Assembly: GCF_001519075.1 (NCBI RefSeq)
Contig: NZ_KQ954244.1
Coordinates: 1,009,934 to 1,073,933 of the forward strand
Reading direction: 5' to 3'
DNA from: Novosphingobium fuchskuhlense
GTDB taxonomy: Bacteria > Pseudomonadota > Alphaproteobacteria > Sphingomonadales > Sphingomonadaceae
DNA: 64,000 nt
Part shown: one piece after another, positions 56,711 to 64,000 of the stretch
Layout: each line of letters starts with the position of its first letter
Numbering within the stretch: the stretch's first letter is position 1
Translations under genes and position numbers: made by a program
The notes under the pieces: generated by a model
What the model was told of the DNA's origin: nothing
Seen by the model: only the letters and a program-made list of their open reading frames with translations
Database searches by the model: none

Positions 56711-59254
56711 GTGAAGCCATCCGTAATTCAATCGTGTGCATCCGTCCTTGCGCTGGCCGTCGCCGGCCTCGCGGCGCCCGTGCATGCGCAGTCCGCCGCG
56801 CCTGCCGCCGCTGCCGCAACCGACGCGCCGGCCGATACGCTGAGCGAAATCGTCGTTACCGCCTCGACCGGCACCAAGAGCAAGCTCGACAGCTCGGTCT
56901 CGATCTCGTCGGTCGATGCCGCGATCATCAACAACTTCCGCCCGATGTCGGAAGGCGATCTGCTTCGCCTGCTGCCGGGTCTTCAGCCCAACGTTTCGGG
57001 CCCTGGCGGTAACGGCAACTTCGCCGTGCGCGGTCTGCCTGTCGCCACCGGCGGTGCCACCTTCGTCCAGCTGCAGGAAGATGGCCTGCCCACCGTCCTG
57101 TTCGGTGATATCCAGTTCGGCAACAACGACTACTGGACCAAGTCGAGCCCGATCGACGCGCGCGTCGATGCGATCCGCGGCGGCACTGCCGCGACGCTCG
57201 CCAGCCAGGCTCCGGGCGCGGTGATCAACTACATCAGCAAGACCGATCGCAGCGAAGGCGGCTACATCCAGGTCGAGCGCAACCTGAGCTACGACTACAC
57301 CCGCGCCAGCTTCCGTTTCTCGGCCGGCATCGACGACAAGACCCACCTCAACATCGGCGGCTACTACGGTGCCGGGGATGGTCCGTGGCACTCGGGCTAC
57401 AACCTGTCGAAGTCGTACCTGATCAAGGGCAACGTGACCCGCGAATTCGATGACAACCGCGGCTTCTTCCGCCTCTATTTCAAGGCGCAGGACACGCAGG
57501 AGCCCAACACACAGGGCGGCATCGCCTGCGGCAATCTCAGCGGCGGCAAGGTTTCCGGCCTCTCGGCCTGCCCGGGCTTCGATCCGCGCCGCGCGTCGAA
57601 CTTCTCGGTCTACAACACCAACATCAACTACGTCGATTTCGACAGCCGCGGTCTTGCCAGCACGCCGCTCAACGGCATCACGACCAAGGCCCAGTCGCTT
57701 CAGGCGCAGCTGCACTACAAGTTCGACAACGGCATCACCGTCGACAACAACGCCCGCTACACCAGCATGAGCGGCGGGTTCTCGTCTAACTTCCTGAGCG
57801 TTGCTCCGCTCTCGGGCCTGATCGGTTCGACCAAGAACGGCAAGACCGTGGCCCGTGCGGTCTACGGCGCCGGTCCGGACAAGGGCAAGGATGTCGCCGA
57901 AGCGTTCTACAACAACAACGTCTCGGTCTACACCCGGATCCGCGATGTCGGCAGCTTCGTCAACGACGCCAAGCTCAACTGGCAGGGTGATCTTGGTGCG
58001 GTGAAGGCCAACCTGACCGCCGGCTGGTTCTACATGAACCAGAAGATCGCCATGGATTGGCATCCGAACCAGTTCAACGCTTCGCTGACTCCGGCTGCTG
58101 CTCCGATCGATCTGCTCGATTCCGCCGGCAACCTGCTCAGCGCGAACGGTTTCACCGGCTACAACAACAACTGGGGCGGCTGCTGCGCCCGCACCTACGA
58201 CTACACGTTCACCGACAACGCGCCCTACGCTGACTTCATCTTCGACGTGGGCAAGTTCGAGCTCGACGCCTCGGTCCGTCACGACATCAACAAGGGTTCG
58301 GGTTCGGGCATCAACGCCAATCCCGTCACCGGCGATGCCGTCACCAACTTCATCACCACCAACGCGGTGAACCCTGTGACCGGCGCATCGCAGTCGGTGA
58401 CCCTGCCGTACTACCTGCCCGATGGTGCGCGCGAGAACATCAACTACACCAAGCAGACCACCTCTTGGTCGGTCGGTGCCAGCTTCAAGCCGGCGGACAA
58501 CCTCAACCTGTTCGTCCGCGCCTCGAAGGGTGTCCGCGCCAACGCCGATCGTCTGACGTTCAACGGCTACTTCAACGCCAACGGCACGCTCAACGACAAG
58601 GGCAACGCTGCGGTCTCGAACAACGTCTATCAGTATGAAATCGGCCTGAAGAACCGCGGCGACATCGGCGGCGCGCGCTACACGGTCGAACTGACGGCGT
58701 ATCACAGCCACTTCAACATCACGACCTACGAGCTCAGCCAGACGATCTGCCCGATCGTCACCGGCAGCCCGACGACCTTCACCTGCATCGTCTCGGACAA
58801 GTACAAGACGACCGGCGCGGAGTTCTACGGCACGCTCAGCGCGGGCGGCTTCAGCCTCCTTGCGAACATGACCTACAACAAGTCGAAGAAGCAGCCCTCG
58901 GCTCCGGGGTCGGTGTTCTCGCGGTCGAACAACATTCCCGACCTCTCGTACACCTTCGCTGCCAACTACGACTTCAGCGACTTGGTCTCGCTCGGCGCCA
59001 ACATCACCGGCGTGACCAGCACGCTGGATGGTGCTGGCAACGAGTGGCCGGGTGGCAGCGTGGTCGGCGCGAACATCAAGGTTCGCCCGCTCAAGAACCT
59101 GGAGTTGGGCCTCAATGCCTACAACCTGTTCGACAAGCTGACCCCGCTCGGGCCGGCCGGCACGGACTTCAACGCGGGTGGCGGCAAGTTCGTCGGCGGC
59201 ATTTCGCCGGTGCTCGGCCGCAACATCAACGCTTCGGTCCGCTTCAGCTTCTGA
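56711..59254 (+). CDS. TonB-dependent outer membrane receptor
   Basis: Outer membrane transporter of 847 aa. It has a signal peptide (residues 1-26, ending PVHA), a TonB-box-like SEIVVTA near residue 45, a plug domain (NNFRPMSEGDLLRLLPGLQPNVSGPGGNGNFAVRGLP to VINYISKTD) and a 22-strand-type barrel ending in SVRFSF with a terminal phenylalanine. The start is GTG 56711. The setting with a LacI regulator and fructokinase suggests uptake of a fructose-containing sugar such as sucrose, by analogy with SuxA-type receptors. It uses many Asn/Tyr/Thr codons with C at the third position, as expected for a highly expressed barrel. Confidence 0.92.
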   Translation: MKPSVIQSCASVLALAVAGLAAPVHAQSAAPAAAAATDAPADTLSEIVVTASTGTKSKLDSSVSISSVDAAIINNFRPMSEGDLLRLLPGLQPNVSGPGGNGNFAVRGLPVATGGATFVQLQEDGLPTVLFGDIQFGNNDYWTKSSPIDARVDAIRGGTAATLASQAPGAVINYISKTDRSEGGYIQVERNLSYDYTRASFRFSAGIDDKTHLNIGGYYGAGDGPWHSGYNLSKSYLIKGNVTREFDDNRGFFRLYFKAQDTQEPNTQGGIACGNLSGGKVSGLSACPGFDPRRASNFSVYNTNINYVDFDSRGLASTPLNGITTKAQSLQAQLHYKFDNGITVDNNARYTSMSGGFSSNFLSVAPLSGLIGSTKNGKTVARAVYGAGPDKGKDVAEAFYNNNVSVYTRIRDVGSFVNDAKLNWQGDLGAVKANLTAGWFYMNQKIAMDWHPNQFNASLTPAAAPIDLLDSAGNLLSANGFTGYNNNWGGCCARTYDYTFTDNAPYADFIFDVGKFELDASVRHDINKGSGSGINANPVTGDAVTNFITTNAVNPVTGASQSVTLPYYLPDGARENINYTKQTTSWSVGASFKPADNLNLFVRASKGVRANADRLTFNGYFNANGTLNDKGNAAVSNNVYQYEIGLKNRGDIGGARYTVELTAYHSHFNITTYELSQTICPIVTGSPTTFTCIVSDKYKTTGAEFYGTLSAGGFSLLANMTYNKSKKQPSAPGSVFSRSNNIPDLSYTFAANYDFSDLVSLGANITGVTSTLDGAGNEWPGGSVVGANIKVRPLKNLELGLNAYNLFDKLTPLGPAGTDFNAGGGKFVGGISPVLGRNINASVRFSF

Positions 59255-59294
59255 CCGCTGAAGCCTGCCCGAAAGGGTGAGGTGACTGACAAAT

Positions 59295-59333
59295 GGGGTG
59301 GGCGCGGCAAGAGTTCCGCACCCACCCCTTTTT
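59295..59333 (+). terminator. Intrinsic terminator between receptor and halogenase genes
   Basis: A 13-bp stem (GGGGTGGGCGCGG against CCGCACCCACCCC, one mismatch), an 8-base loop and five Ts. It lies 40 bases after the receptor stop, so downstream genes would be read at a lower level. Confidence 0.85.
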
Positions 59334-59390
59334 GCGTAAGGAATGGCCCATGCCGGCAAACGGCAGGGCGCAGCGGAAGGGAATGCTCTG

Positions 59391-60905
59391 GTGAACGAAG
59401 GCGATCGTCGGATCCGTTCGGTGCTCGTGGTTGGCGGCGGTTCGGCCGGCTGGATGTCGGCGGCCATGCTTGCCACGATGCTCAAGCGCGACTGCAGGAT
59501 CACGCTCGTCGAATCCGACGAGATCGGCATCGTCGGAGTGGGCGAGGCGACCATTCCCCCCATCCGCCTGTTCAACGAAACACTCGGCATCAGCGAGGCG
59601 GATTTCATCCGCGAGACGCGCGGCACCTTCAAGCTGGGTATCGAATTCGTCGACTGGGGTTCGGTCGGCAGTCGCTATTTCCACCCGTTCGGCCCCCACG
59701 GCCGCAATTTCGATATGGTGCCGCTGCACCAGTACTGGCTGAAGACGCGCGAGGAGCCGGGCGCCTTCCCGCTCGACGAGCTGTCGATGGCCTGGCAGAT
59801 CGCGCGCGCCGGCCGCATGGCCCGGCCCGTGCCCGATCAGCGCTCGCTGCTGTCCACCTTCGATTATGCCTATCACTTCGACGCCTCGCTCTATGCGGCG
59901 TTCCTGCGCCGCCATGCCGAGGCGCGCGGCGTCACCCGCGTCGAAGGCAAGATCGGCGACGTCACGCTGAACGGCGAGACCGGCATCGTCGAAAGCGTCA
60001 CCCTCGAAGACGGCCGCACGCTGGAGGCTGATCTCTTCATCGACTGCTCGGGCCTGCGCGCGCTGCTCATCGAAGGCGCGCTGAAGACCGGGTTCGAAGA
60101 CTGGAGCCACTGGCTCCCCTGTGACCGCGCCGTCGCCATGCCCTGCGCCAATGCTGGACCGCCCACGCCCTATACCCGCTCCACCGCGCGCGAGGCCGGC
60201 TGGCAGTGGCGCATCCCGCTCCAGCACCGCATCGGCAACGGATACGTCTATTCCAGCCCGTTCCTCGAGGACGACAAGGCTGCGGAGCTTCTCACCTCGC
60301 GTCTCGATGGTGAAGCGCTCGGCGACCCTCGCTTCGTGCGCTTCCGCACCGGGCGGCGCAAGCTCCACTGGAACCGCAATGTCGTCGCCGTCGGCCTTTC
60401 CAGCGGCTTCCTCGAGCCCCTCGAATCGACCTCGATCCACCTCATCCAGGCCAATATCTCCAAGCTCATCGGCCTGTTCCCGGACCGGGATTTCGATCCC
60501 GCCACGATCGATGAATTCAACCGCATCGCCCATGCCGAGACCGACCGCATCCGCGATTTTCTGATCCTGCACTACAAGCTCACGCAACGGCAGGACCACG
60601 AACTGTGGCGCTACGTCTCGTCGATGGACGTGCCTGATACGCTCGCACTCAAGCTGGAGCATTTCCGCCGCCACGGCCGCCTCATCGCGCGCGAGATGGA
60701 CCTGTTTGCGCCCGCTTCGTGGCTGGCGGTGCACATTGGCCAGCACAACTATCCCGAAGGGCTCGATCCCCTCATCGCCCACCGCGGGATCGACGCGCGT
60801 GATTACCTCGCCAAGCTGCGAGCGGGCATGGCGGCCGAAGCAGCGAAGCTGCCCAGCCACGAGGCCTATATCGCCGGCCTGATCGGCGCCCCCGCGGCGG
60901 CCTGA
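59391..60905 (+). CDS. Tryptophan halogenase-family flavoprotein
   Basis: Protein of 504 aa in the FADH2-dependent halogenase family. The FAD loop is GGGSAGW (16-21 region). The catalytic lysine is K81 in GTFKLGIEF (PrnA K79), WQWRIP is at 271-276 (PrnA W272/W274), and E345/S346 sit in LEPLEST (PrnA E346/S347). All key halogenation residues are therefore present. Similar genes are frequent beside TonB receptors in sphingomonads and caulobacters, where the true substrate is unknown. GTG 59391 with GGAAGG upstream is preferred; ATG 59343 would add 16 residues and has its ribosome site too close. Confidence 0.9.
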   Translation: MNEGDRRIRSVLVVGGGSAGWMSAAMLATMLKRDCRITLVESDEIGIVGVGEATIPPIRLFNETLGISEADFIRETRGTFKLGIEFVDWGSVGSRYFHPFGPHGRNFDMVPLHQYWLKTREEPGAFPLDELSMAWQIARAGRMARPVPDQRSLLSTFDYAYHFDASLYAAFLRRHAEARGVTRVEGKIGDVTLNGETGIVESVTLEDGRTLEADLFIDCSGLRALLIEGALKTGFEDWSHWLPCDRAVAMPCANAGPPTPYTRSTAREAGWQWRIPLQHRIGNGYVYSSPFLEDDKAAELLTSRLDGEALGDPRFVRFRTGRRKLHWNRNVVAVGLSSGFLEPLESTSIHLIQANISKLIGLFPDRDFDPATIDEFNRIAHAETDRIRDFLILHYKLTQRQDHELWRYVSSMDVPDTLALKLEHFRRHGRLIAREMDLFAPASWLAVHIGQHNYPEGLDPLIAHRGIDARDYLAKLRAGMAAEAAKLPSHEAYIAGLIGAPAAA

Positions 60906-60910
60906 GGCGC

Positions 60911-62299
60911 ATGGCGGACCCCTTCGATGCCGAACTGTGGCGCGACAAGGCACGGGGTCTTCGCGCGGCGCAGGATATGCTCCGCGCGGATAGTGCTATC
61001 CAGGAAGCGGCGCGCCTTGCCCCGTCCGATCCGCTCACCGCCTTCCTGCGCGCCCAATCGGCCTACGAGCTCGGCCATCCTGCTGCCGCCCTCTTCGCCG
61101 AGGCGGTCCGGCTCTGGCCGGAAAACCCCGATGTCCTGCGCAACCACGCGCTCGCGCTCGCCGCGGAAGGCCGGCAGGTCGAAGCGGAAGCCGTGCTGGC
61201 GCGCGCGCTGGCGGCGCGGCCCGATTGGCTTGATGGCCAGCGCGTGCTTGCCAGCCTGCGCTACAGCCACGGCGATGCGGAGAGCTACGATGCGGGCTTT
61301 GCCGAGGCGGTCCGCGCGCAGCCGCGCCATCAGGGGCTCTGGCTCGGCTGGTTCACCTTGCGCGCGCAGCAGCGCGATTGGCCCGCCGCGCTGCGCATCC
61401 TCGATGAGGCTGCCCACCACCTTGGCGAGACCCGCCAGCTTGCCGTCGCCCGGGCTTTCCTTGCCAGCGAGAGCGGCGATCTGGCCGAGGCGCAGGCGCA
61501 GCTTGCGGCGCTGACCGGCGCTGACGACGCGTTTCTCGTCCTCTGCCGCATCCGCACAGCTCTGCGTGCAGGCCAGCCGGAACGCGCCCGCGATCTGGCC
61601 CTGCCGCTCACGGGCACTCACCTTGCCGGGCAGGTCTGGCCCTATCTCTCGACCGCTTGGCGGCTGCTTGCCGATCCCCTGGCGGCATGGCTCGACGGGG
61701 ATCCCGTGCTTCACGGCGTGCTTGATCCCGGCCTCTCCGCGGCGGAACTCGGCGAACTCGCCATGCTTCTGCGCCAGCTGCATACGGCATCGCTGCCCTA
61801 TGCCGAACAGTCGGTGCGCCATGGTACCCAGACCGACCGCTCCATCCTGCTACGCCATGAACCGCTTCTGGGCAGCGTCCGCACCCGGCTGATGGAGGCG
61901 CTGCGCGATCATGTCGCTGCCCTGCCGCTGCCCGATCCGCGCGGCCCCATGCCCCATCCAACCCTCGGACGCCCGCGTGGCGGCTTGCAGATCTCGGGCA
62001 GCTGGTCGGTGCGCCTTGGCGCTGGAGGCTTCAACGTCACGCACAGCCACCCGGTCGGCTGGCTCTCGGCGGTGCTCTATGTCGCGCTGCCCGGGGATCC
62101 CGGCCCGGCTCCGGCTGGGGCGCTCCAGCTCGGCGCGCCGCCGCCTGAGCTCGGTGTCAGCCTCCCGCCCTATGCGGTCATACCCCCGCGCACGGGCCAG
62201 CTTGTGGTCTTCCCCTCGATCCTGTGGCATGGCACCTATCCGTTCGCAGCGGGAGAACGGCTCAACATCGCCTTCGATGTGGTTCCCACCTCCGCCTGA
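60911..62299 (+). CDS. TPR-repeat protein with C-terminal 2OG-Fe(II) oxygenase domain
   Basis: Protein of 462 aa, 5 bases after the halogenase gene. Residues 1-260 are alanine-rich helical TPR-like repeats (for example AFLRAQSAYELGHPAAALFAEAVRLWPENP). The C-terminal 110 residues match the putative 2OG-Fe(II) oxygenase group: SWSVRLGAGGFNVTHSHPVGWLSAVLYVALP with H378/H380, and PRTGQLVVFPSILWHGTYPF with H440, then ERLNIAFDV. It probably hydroxylates a protein or small molecule brought in by the TPR part; the partner is unknown. Confidence 0.82.
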   Translation: MADPFDAELWRDKARGLRAAQDMLRADSAIQEAARLAPSDPLTAFLRAQSAYELGHPAAALFAEAVRLWPENPDVLRNHALALAAEGRQVEAEAVLARALAARPDWLDGQRVLASLRYSHGDAESYDAGFAEAVRAQPRHQGLWLGWFTLRAQQRDWPAALRILDEAAHHLGETRQLAVARAFLASESGDLAEAQAQLAALTGADDAFLVLCRIRTALRAGQPERARDLALPLTGTHLAGQVWPYLSTAWRLLADPLAAWLDGDPVLHGVLDPGLSAAELGELAMLLRQLHTASLPYAEQSVRHGTQTDRSILLRHEPLLGSVRTRLMEALRDHVAALPLPDPRGPMPHPTLGRPRGGLQISGSWSVRLGAGGFNVTHSHPVGWLSAVLYVALPGDPGPAPAGALQLGAPPPELGVSLPPYAVIPPRTGQLVVFPSILWHGTYPFAAGERLNIAFDVVPTSA

Positions 62300-62314
62300 G
62301 GACACCGCGAAACC

Positions 62315-63313
62315 ATGAACGCCCCGAAGACTCTCAAGGAACTCGCCGAGATCGCCGGTGTCACCAGCGGCACGGTCTCGCGCGCGCTCTCGGGTTCGAA
62401 CCTCGTCACGCCGGCCACGCGCGACATGATCGTGGCGCTCGCCCGCCAGCACGGGTTCACTCCCAACGCCACCGCACGCAACTTGCGCATGCGCAAGACC
62501 AACACCATCGGCGTGGTCATTCCGCTCGGCCACGAAGTGCGGCAGAACATTTCCGATCCGTTCTTCATCACCCTGCTTGGCCTGCTCGCGGACAAGCTGA
62601 CCGCGCGCGGCTACAGTCTGCTCCTCTCGCGCGTGGTGCCCACGGACGAGGACTGGCTGCTCAAGCTCGCGCGGTCCGGCCAGTCGGACGGGATCATCGT
62701 GATCGGCCAGTCCGACCAGTCCGCCGTACTCGACCGCGTGGCCGAACTCTATCGCCCGCTCGTCGTCTGGGGCTCGCACATTGCCGGCCAGGCCCATTGC
62801 TCGGTGGGGTCGGACAATTTCCGCGGCGGCGCACTTGCCGCGCAGCATCTTATCGAACGCGGTTGCCGTAACATCGTGTTCTTTGGCGATCCGCGCGCGA
62901 TCGAGATCGGCCAGCGCCTCGAAGGCTGCCGTTCGGTGGTAGAAAAGGCCGGCATTCCCTTCGGCATTGTGCCCACGCATCTTGTCGCGGACGAGGCCCA
63001 GAGCGAGATTGGCAAGTATTTCCGTGCGAAGGCTCACCGTCCGGACGGGGTCGTCGCCGCATCCGACGTCATCGCCGTCACTGCCCTACGCGTCCTTACC
63101 GAACAGGGTCTGTCAGTGCCCGCTGACGTGAAGGTGATCGGCTACGATGGTCTGCAGTTGGGCGAGCACACCATGCCCCCGCTCACCACGATCGCGCAGG
63201 ATCTGGAGCAGGGCGCCGATAGCCTGGTGAGCAGCGTGGTCCAGCGCATCGCGGGGGAAGAGATCCACTCTGTCATCCTCCAGCCCCGCCTCCTGGTGCG
63301 CCAGTCTACCTGA
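62315..63313 (+). CDS. LacI-family transcriptional regulator
   Basis: Protein of 332 aa. The DNA-binding head reads TLKELAEIAGVTSGTVSRALSGSNLVTPATRDMI, with hinge NATARNLRMRKTNTIGVVIP, followed by a periplasmic-binding-like sugar domain (GSDNFRGGALAAQHLIERG, IGYDGLQLGEHTMPPLTTI). It likely represses the receptor-halogenase-oxygenase genes and perhaps the fructokinase, with a sugar as inducer. It follows the TPR gene by 15 bases and overlaps the convergent fructokinase stop by 8 bases. Confidence 0.92.
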   Translation: MNAPKTLKELAEIAGVTSGTVSRALSGSNLVTPATRDMIVALARQHGFTPNATARNLRMRKTNTIGVVIPLGHEVRQNISDPFFITLLGLLADKLTARGYSLLLSRVVPTDEDWLLKLARSGQSDGIIVIGQSDQSAVLDRVAELYRPLVVWGSHIAGQAHCSVGSDNFRGGALAAQHLIERGCRNIVFFGDPRAIEIGQRLEGCRSVVEKAGIPFGIVPTHLVADEAQSEIGKYFRAKAHRPDGVVAASDVIAVTALRVLTEQGLSVPADVKVIGYDGLQLGEHTMPPLTTIAQDLEQGADSLVSSVVQRIAGEEIHSVILQPRLLVRQST

Positions 63314-64000
63314 GGTCGAGGGCGAGGGCGAGGGCACCCAGCAGGCCCGCGTTGTCACCCAGCCCGGGCGGCACGATCAACTCGTCGATCTTGCCCACGG
63401 TATAGCCGCCGTTCGCCGTCTGCGCCTCGGTGCGGATCAGATCGAGCAGGCCTTGCGTTGCTGTCACCCCGCCACCCAGCACGATGCGCGCGGGCTCCAT
63501 GATGGTCTGGAACGTCGCCAGCGCGCGGCCGATATACCACGCGATGATGCGCTTGCCGGGATGCCCCTCGGGCAGCTCCGAAAGCGACTGGCCCCACCGC
63601 GCGATCACCGCCGGGCCGCAGGCAAGCCCTTCGAGGCAATCGCCGTGGAACGGGCAGGTCCCCACAAAGTCGAGGTCCTCGGGATGGCGCGGCATCCGGA
63701 TATGGCCCATTTCCGGGTGCGAAAGCCCGCGCAGCAGATGTCCATCGCTGCAGAAGCCCCCGCCGATCCCGGTGCCGATGGTGAGGTAGAGCACTGAACC
63801 TAGATCGGCGCCCGCACCCCACAGTGCTTCTGCAAGCGCCGCGCCGTTCACGTCGGTATCGATCGCCACCGGCACGCCGAAGCGTTCTTTGAACGGCGCG
63901 ATCAGGCTTGCCCCGCTCCAGTGCGGCTTGGGCGTCGGGCGCACACAGCCGAAGGCGGGTGAGCCCGGATCTAGATCGAGCGGCCCGAACGAGGCGATCC
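63306..64000 (-). CDS. Fructokinase (ROK family), 5' end outside the window
   Basis: The visible 230 residues continue through the window edge, so the N-terminus and ATP loop start are missing. DTDVNGAALAEALWGAG has the catalytic aspartate, LTIGTGIGGG the phosphate loop, and HPEDLDFVGTCPFHGDCLEGLACGPA the zinc site (His and cysteines) typical of bacterial ROK fructokinases. It phosphorylates fructose to fructose 6-phosphate. Its presence beside the TonB receptor and LacI gene supports a sucrose- or fructan-type substrate for the locus. Confidence 0.9.
   Translation of the reverse strand, partial: IASFGPLDLDPGSPAFGCVRPTPKPHWSGASLIAPFKERFGVPVAIDTDVNGAALAEALWGAGADLGSVLYLTIGTGIGGGFCSDGHLLRGLSHPEMGHIRMPRHPEDLDFVGTCPFHGDCLEGLACGPAVIARWGQSLSELPEGHPGKRIIAWYIGRALATFQTIMEPARIVLGGGVTATQGLLDLIRTEAQTANGGYTVGKIDELIVPPGLGDNAGLLGALALALDLR

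Follow-up and report, generated by a model that had tools for sequence, protein, structure and literature searches.

The window analysed here is a stretch of 64,000 nucleotides of Novosphingobium fuchskuhlense (C1:1009934-1073933 in the 3.97-Mb genome). Its last 7.3 kb carry the genes of a TonB-dependent receptor (TBDT), a flavin-dependent halogenase (FDH), an oxygenase composed of a tetratricopeptide repeat (TPR) superhelix and a 2-oxoglutarate (2OG)-Fe(II) domain, and a LacI-family regulator on the + strand, and that of a ROK-family sugar kinase on the - strand. These five genes, with a fructokinase-type kinase as the last, had been listed in a preliminary description of the DNA, and all were found by Pfam profiles. 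The FDH accompanies one clade of receptors, the raffinose-type clade, and it is tentatively proposed below that the FDH and the oxygenase tailor the receptor polypeptide.

The receptor gene (56711-59254, +; PF00593, 66 bits; PF07715, 35 bits) starts with GTG, which is preceded by a GGAGG-like site, and its product was placed in the raffinose-type clade by the tree. It is followed by the genes of the FDH (59343-60905, +; PF04820, 623 bits), the oxygenase (60911-62299, +; PF13759, 66.7 bits against a curated cut-off of 27) and the LacI-family regulator (62315-63313, +; PF00356 and PF13377). Since the gaps between the longest open reading frames (ORFs) are 88, 5 and 15 bp, these four genes likely form one operon. 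No precursor gene like those of ribosomally synthesised and post-translationally modified peptides (RiPPs) fits these gaps. The ROK kinase, a probable fructokinase (63306-64000, -; PF00480, 199 bits for the complete gene), runs beyond the window end, and its gene is intact on the contig (region L006, 13240-14112).

Beyond the window edge, the same - strand carries, after the ROK gene, the genes of GH68, galactokinase (GalK), GalT, a GH36 alpha-galactosidase and an MFS carrier. As in carbohydrate utilisation loci (CUT), a TBDT, LacI, MFS, GH68, GH36, ROK, GalK and GalT are found together. Because of this content of the contig flank, the "sugar locus" of the preliminary description can be narrowed to what looks like a cluster for utilisation of sucrose and raffinose-family oligosaccharides. 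Its nearest named relative, among the matches listed, is from Novosphingobium sediminis, with an FDH 93% identical. Biosynthetic partner genes were not recognised in the locus stretch or in the relatives inspected. A 20-bp near-palindrome, TGATTCACTCGATTGAATCA, lies upstream of the MFS gene (L010, 1458 onward, - strand) and is a possible LacI operator. It has 10 bp in common with the TBDT upstream region; the probability of this by chance is about 0.2, and a shared operator was not used as an argument.

Halogenase, oxygenase and receptor

Among the solved chains, the FDH is closest by sequence to BrvH of Brevundimonas BAL3 (6frl, 499 bits), followed by 9luq (487 bits), Xcc4156 of X. campestris (6y1w, 450 bits) and PrnA (312 bits). 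The alignment with BrvH covers nearly the full length with few gaps, and the local alignments to PrnA and RebH stop at residues 426-428. When residues are numbered from 59388, the catalytic residues are K82, E346 and S347, and the motifs WQWRIP and GGGSAG are present; the true start may be at about 59391, downstream of the longest-ORF start at 59343. K82 presumably corresponds to K79 of PrnA, and E346 and S347 are taken to carry identical numbers there. The preliminary description, which had placed all PrnA-type catalytic residues at nearly identical numbers, was correct in this respect, and the Lys and the Glu are each kept in 142 of the 145 related FDH rows. Its comparison with PrnA has to be corrected in one point: at the second halide position the enzyme has Ser349 (in ESTS), as in BrvH, and not the Gly expected in the PrnA/RebH class. 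Ser occupies this position in 128 of the 145 rows.

PrnA and RebH share PF04820, the FAD motif (GxGxxG), the catalytic Lys and Glu, and WxWxIP with the window enzyme. However, they act on free tryptophan and belong to antibiotic clusters, whereas the FDH here lacks the halide-site Gly and a secondary-metabolite cluster, and lies in a sugar locus. Judged by the closest sequences and the non-Gly second halide residue, which is shared with BrvH and Xcc4156 as its closest characterised relatives, the FDH belongs to the BrvH/Xcc4156 subgroup. According to the accessible text of PMC7336383, BrvH has Ser at the second halide position, where most FDHs carry Gly, and Xcc4156 has Asn. Both enzymes are described there and in PMC5945002 as halogenating indole but not free tryptophan in vitro and as having an open active site; enzymes of this type have been studied as biocatalysts, and their native substrate is given as unknown. 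Larger substrates were suggested in PMC5945002, and the idea of a peptide substrate is repeated in PMC7336383, in the portions of these papers at hand. A role of FDHs in virus-receptor redox is floated in the available part of PMC11337851.

This genome has four FDH clusters (five FDHs), all of which adjoin a TBDT, although only 47 Plug matches were obtained genome-wide; like the conservation of the catalytic Lys and Glu, this exceeds what chance would give. In the family of the window, PF04820 enzymes above the cut-off occur in 134 of the 199 genomes searched. The second FDH locus of this genome (L007, 3760-13727) contains a TBDT, an FDH, SapC (PF07277), another FDH and a LacI-like regulator.

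The AlphaFold model of the oxygenase (pLDDT 94) shows a TPR superhelix, followed by a mostly beta domain. The top full-length rows in Foldseek were AspH, with a whole-chain TM of only about 0.3. In AspH (TPR plus Asp/Asn beta-hydroxylase), too, the TPR domain precedes the oxygenase domain; unlike AspH, the oxygenase domain here is PF13759 with an HxH motif. A second structural alignment was led by 3bvc (Z 16.6) and 2rg4 (Z 16.3), both matching the oxygenase domain, with many TPR proteins next, and protein prolyl hydroxylases (PHD2, and P4H with EF-Tu) came after them at a Z of about 14 for the domain. All 46 rows compared carry H378-S-H380, H440 and R450, which means that His replaces the usual Asp/Glu of the standard 2OG-Fe(II) motif HxD/E...H...R. 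As far as the model indicates, the build, in which a TPR superhelix is joined to an oxygenase domain, resembles that of protein hydroxylases.

The model of the receptor (847 residues, pLDDT 82) is closest to siderophore receptors, e.g. FoxA and FhuA. Receptors for siderophores, cobalamin and the like make up the list of neighbours, which includes structures of the T5 pb5-FhuA complex; such matches to a predicted fold tell nothing about the sugar of this receptor. Site tallies (numbering from 56711) pointed to candidate sites in the plug, N139, Y141 and W142, and in a long loop, N485 and W488. This loop is presumably extracellular, to judge by how the strands are arranged in the model. Among the 56 FDH-type receptors, N139, Y141, N485 and W488 are present in all and W142 in 52, with Phe in the other four. 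The 21 sucrose-type receptors have Ala or Ser at 139, Phe at 142 (all 21), Gly, Ser or Ala at 485, and Phe at 488 (18, with Trp in two and Thr in one). In the other TBDT group met beside FDHs, which is mostly maltose-type, a loop LT[DS]PxGW is common, and its Trp is found in 56 of 65 rows. Vicinal cysteines, C491-C492, come shortly after W488 (residues 488-492, window 58172-58186); most receptors of the raffinose-type and sucrose-type clades retain them.

Association of the halogenase with the receptor clade

The surroundings of FDH relatives were surveyed for the best 80 of at least 568 confirmed relatives, in named genomes. This receptor family was found at 39 of the 80 loci, another TBDT group, mostly maltose-type, at 30, and neither at 11. 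Accordingly, 69 of the 80 closely related FDHs accompany a TonB receptor, and they span Alpha-, Beta- and Gammaproteobacteria. The recurrence of FDHs beside TBDTs, which had been noted for sphingomonads and caulobacters, holds beyond these groups. In 60 cases, no other detected gene on the receptor strand precedes the FDH after the receptor, and the median gap is 151 bp; this count includes the 26 receptor-selected loci described below and some loci twice. For the best 30 maltose-type receptor matches in the family, the FDH is adjacent in 27 of the 29 that could be judged, one being at a contig edge.

The oxygenase is present at 26 of the 39 loci with this receptor family. At 13 of the 30 loci with the other TBDT group, a second oxygenase-like family, DUF6445 (PF20043), is among the neighbours; since all 14 of its rows show HxD...H...R, DUF6445 may be a 2OG oxygenase family. 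DUF6445 adjoins the FDH in 14 loci (L098, L112, L113, L115-L117, L119, L121, L124-L127, L130 and L139), 13 of which have a maltose-type TBDT. Tandem arrays with two, three or four FDH genes (L132, L134-L138) were observed in Caulobacter, Oceanicaulis, Robiginitomaculum, Gilvimarinus and an uncultured sphingomonad; they adjoin a large TBDT, except in L134 (short contig).

Among the 11 FDH loci lacking a TBDT by the queries used, two are on contigs of less than 6 kb and one is a pair of genes in Novosphingobium capsulatum, described below. A home-made TBDT profile gave no match in these 11 loci, and for eight of them (all but L100, L118 and L134) inspection by eye of the genes called near the FDH showed no TBDT either. 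An 877-residue ORF of L107 resembles topoisomerase I, by eye.

Because these loci had been picked through the FDH, a search with the receptor only, independent of the FDH, was carried out in 199 genomes of the family and 396 of the order (overlapping sets). It gave 26 raffinose-clade receptors, eight assigned by the tree and 18 by an E-value of 1.6e-147 or lower plus a motif. From the sister sucrose-type group, 21 receptors with widened surroundings were compared (19 assigned by the tree and two by the motif). An FDH lies within 2.5 kb of 25 of the 26 raffinose-clade receptors. Within 9 kb, it is the most constant neighbour (25), followed by LacI (24), GH68 (22), GH36 (21), the oxygenase and ROK (19 each), MFS (16), GH32 (12), and GalK and GalT (nine each). 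Around the 21 sucrose-type receptors there is no FDH within 2.5 kb, and one, of a different FDH group, at 5.2 kb; the oxygenase and GH36 are absent from all, and GH68 and ROK (18 each), MFS and LacI (17 each) are common. In 1.5-kb flanks, no FDH was found at 22 lower-scoring loci of the family and nine of the order, which overlap with the 21 and are part of the listed matches.

In terms of gene neighbourhoods, the FDH tracks the receptor clade rather than sucrose use as such, because it adjoins 25 of 26 raffinose-type and none of 21 sucrose-type receptors. It should be mentioned that receptor cargo and FDH are inseparable by this comparison, since the alpha-galactoside genes follow the same clade.

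The only raffinose-clade receptor without a neighbouring FDH is that of N. capsulatum (L233, which agrees with the N. capsulatum locus L064 in coordinates and score). In this genome, an FDH 75% identical to that of the window, directly followed by the oxygenase, lies on a contig other than that of the receptor, and no TBDT was found near the pair. This arrangement indicates that FDH and oxygenase changed their place together and that the genome has retained both alongside the receptor. The apparent loss of the FDH had been considered as evidence against a need for it, and this was dropped, as the pair sits elsewhere in the genome.

In the FDH tree, a 60-row clade contains 55 of the 56 FDHs nearest to this receptor type. 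The rest of the clade consists of three FDHs without a TBDT nearby and two from Asticcacaulis (L089 and L095), which have another kind of TBDT nearby. In the receptor tree, raffinose-type receptors of Alpha-, Beta- and Gammaproteobacteria are intermixed, and from this the locus seems to be mobile as one block.

Co-variation of pairwise distances was analysed in 26 loci holding all five genes, after five near-duplicates had been dropped. The partial correlations were 0.50 for receptor-FDH, 0.47 for FDH-oxygenase and 0.72 for LacI-GH68; the other seven ranged from -0.18 to 0.26, the latter value being that of FDH-LacI. Over 1000 two-thirds subsamples, raw correlations were higher for receptor-FDH than for receptor-LacI in 99.9% of cases and than for receptor-GH68 in 98.4%. 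Since neighbouring genes share history, the 10 loci with the oxygenase gene in between were also analysed: the partial correlations were 0.37 for receptor-FDH, 0.00 for receptor-oxygenase and 0.72 for FDH-oxygenase.

Proposed tailoring of the receptor and alternative explanations

The explanation favoured here, at somewhat less than an even chance, is a LacI-linked raffinose/sucrose locus whose FDH and oxygenase tailor the receptor polypeptide before export. We infer the tailoring step itself and put it forward as the best reading, ahead of a small-molecule role. Besides the neighbourhoods and distances described above, the open sites of BrvH and Xcc4156, the peptide or larger substrates suggested for them, the existence of a peptide-Trp brominase (SrpI), and the TBDTs near FDH-less relatives of the oxygenase speak for it. 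The two enzymes, in which no signal peptide was seen by eye, would act in the cytosol on the receptor polypeptide before it is exported. The FDH would halogenate, probably brominate, an aromatic residue of the receptor, W488 in the long loop and W142 in the plug being the best candidates. Hydroxylation of a residue close by (N139, Y141 or N485) would be the task of the oxygenase, unless it joins the FDH on the same segment. Such a mark might tune sugar binding or gating, or might shield the receptor from TBDT-dependent phages and toxins.

Several points weigh against this proposal. Seven of the 26 raffinose-clade receptors have no oxygenase nearby (that of N. capsulatum is encoded elsewhere in the genome), and its activity is not assured, because HxH stands where HxD/E is usual. 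No TBDT lies near 11 of the 80 FDHs by the queries used. The 9-kb counts favour near genes, as the sequence fetched extends to about 8.7 kb on either side of the receptor and less far at contig ends; undercounting affects far genes, and the FDH and the oxygenase, lying close, are unaffected. The FDH-clade result leans on loci chosen by FDH similarity, and gene adjacency can raise distance correlations. The site signature represents one split of the receptor tree, the alpha-galactoside genes divide along the same line, and binding of sucrose versus raffinose could be its cause instead. There are, in addition, the four FDH-type receptors with Phe142 and the two sucrose-type receptors with Trp488. 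In five genomes without an FDH match, the loop Trp of the nearest maltose-type receptor is kept in two (G046 and G129) and missing in three (G001, G095 and G108). The Trp signature of plug and loop was dropped as proof of modification in view of the single tree split, the four Phe142 and the loop Trp in G046 and G129; N139/Y141/W142 and N485/W488 are kept as candidate sites only.

Alternatively, the FDH and the oxygenase may act on a small aromatic compound (an indole-type signal, a plant aromatic or a defence compound) made along with sugar induction, the receptor being only co-regulated or serving as importer. This is rather unlikely, although free indole is halogenated by BrvH and Xcc4156 in vitro, according to the accessible parts of PMC5945002 and PMC7336383, and some of the 11 loci without a detected TBDT are maltose loci (L105 and L122). 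The partner genes that such a pathway would involve were not recognised in the locus or in the relatives inspected, the FDH accompanies one receptor clade and co-varies with that receptor, and the modelled oxygenase has the build of a peptide hydroxylase. A mark on the receptor might also serve defence, by blocking the docking of phages or protein toxins on TBDTs, and not the tuning of uptake. Phages do dock on TBDTs, FhuA being an example, as the T5 pb5-FhuA matches of the receptor model illustrate, and an induced, abundant receptor would make a target. Phage-driven traits usually come and go; the FDH is near-constant in this clade (adjacent to 25 of 26 receptors in the search of the order), which makes this purpose improbable.

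A protein target other than the receptor, either the LacI regulator or a further exported protein, is more improbable still. The LacI gene shares the likely operon, and LacI genes lie near 24 of the 26 receptors, but its partial correlation with the FDH is 0.26 versus 0.50 for the receptor, and LacI is found near 17 of the 21 sucrose-type receptors, which have no adjacent FDH. The mixing of three proteobacterial classes in the receptor tree, with a locus that seems mobile as a unit, would also suit an FDH travelling as a passive passenger without a role there; this is very improbable, since the FDH is retained while GH36, GalT, ROK and MFS vary, the FDH-oxygenase pair is retained unlinked in N. 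capsulatum, and the catalytic residues are conserved. The preliminary description had named the receptor, its sugar cargo or a cell-surface protein as possible targets. A cell-surface protein other than the receptor has a small probability. Halogenation or hydroxylation of the cargo, to which only the gene context points, is the least probable of all: known FDHs act through hypohalous acid on electron-rich aromatics, as is established enzymology, and the locus encodes plain sugar hydrolysis and phosphorylation. The receptor as target has gained support, because the partnership is clade-specific, the pair is retained when unlinked, and the distances co-vary.

Relation to known systems and significance

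The locus resembles the sux locus of Xanthomonas (SuxA/B/C/R) in having a TBDT, an inner-membrane sugar carrier, a LacI-type regulator and a sucrose enzyme, and the receptor can be likened to SucA, the sucrose TBDT of Caulobacter, as these systems appear in the text at hand. The word "halogenase" is absent from the main text of the papers on both, and the sister sucrose-type loci compared in this analysis are likewise without an adjacent FDH and oxygenase. Unlike BrvH and Xcc4156 as described in the accessible text, the FDH of the window is tied to one receptor clade and paired with a TPR-oxygenase. Titles and abstract openings of the open-licence PubMed Central papers listed gave nothing that joins FDHs and TBDTs as a system. 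SrpI, a peptide-Trp brominase, and MibH are FDHs that modify Trp within a peptide, as is proposed here (PMC10858898, by its available text). However, they belong to RiPP pathways with short precursors, whereas the present locus has no recognised gene for a precursor peptide, and a receptor of 847 residues is the target proposed. Such halogenases reportedly lie near the genes for N-acetylglucosamine (nix) in a study of Xanthomonas.

Relatives of the oxygenase occur in 128 of the 199 family genomes. Of the 29 outside loci returned for this oxygenase, 20 were widened (the best 16 and four more). Six of these 20 are FDH-bearing loci of the same kind. The 14 without an FDH (L045, L048-L060) have a TBDT nearby in 13 cases, 11 by Pfam and two by similarity, together with a TPR-Asp/Asn hydroxylase in eight and a TPR-sulfotransferase in seven, some by similarity only. 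As judged by their domain composition, enzymes of protein-modifying build recur beside TBDTs, and it is possible that these sets of TPR-oxygenase, hydroxylase and sulfotransferase are receptor-tailoring kits. A more general idea, which is more doubtful than the proposal for the present locus, is that proteobacterial outer-membrane nutrient receptors are routinely tailored by dedicated adjacent enzyme kits: an FDH and a 2OG oxygenase for raffinose- and maltose-type receptors, and TPR-hydroxylases with a TPR-sulfotransferase for others.

The tie between the FDH and the receptor clade turns the open substrate question of the BrvH- and Xcc-type enzymes into proteomics on named residues. If the proposal is true, the native substrate of BrvH-type FDHs would be identified, and the receptors would be the first class of halogenated bacterial transport proteins. 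Their modification would represent a new control layer on nutrient uptake.

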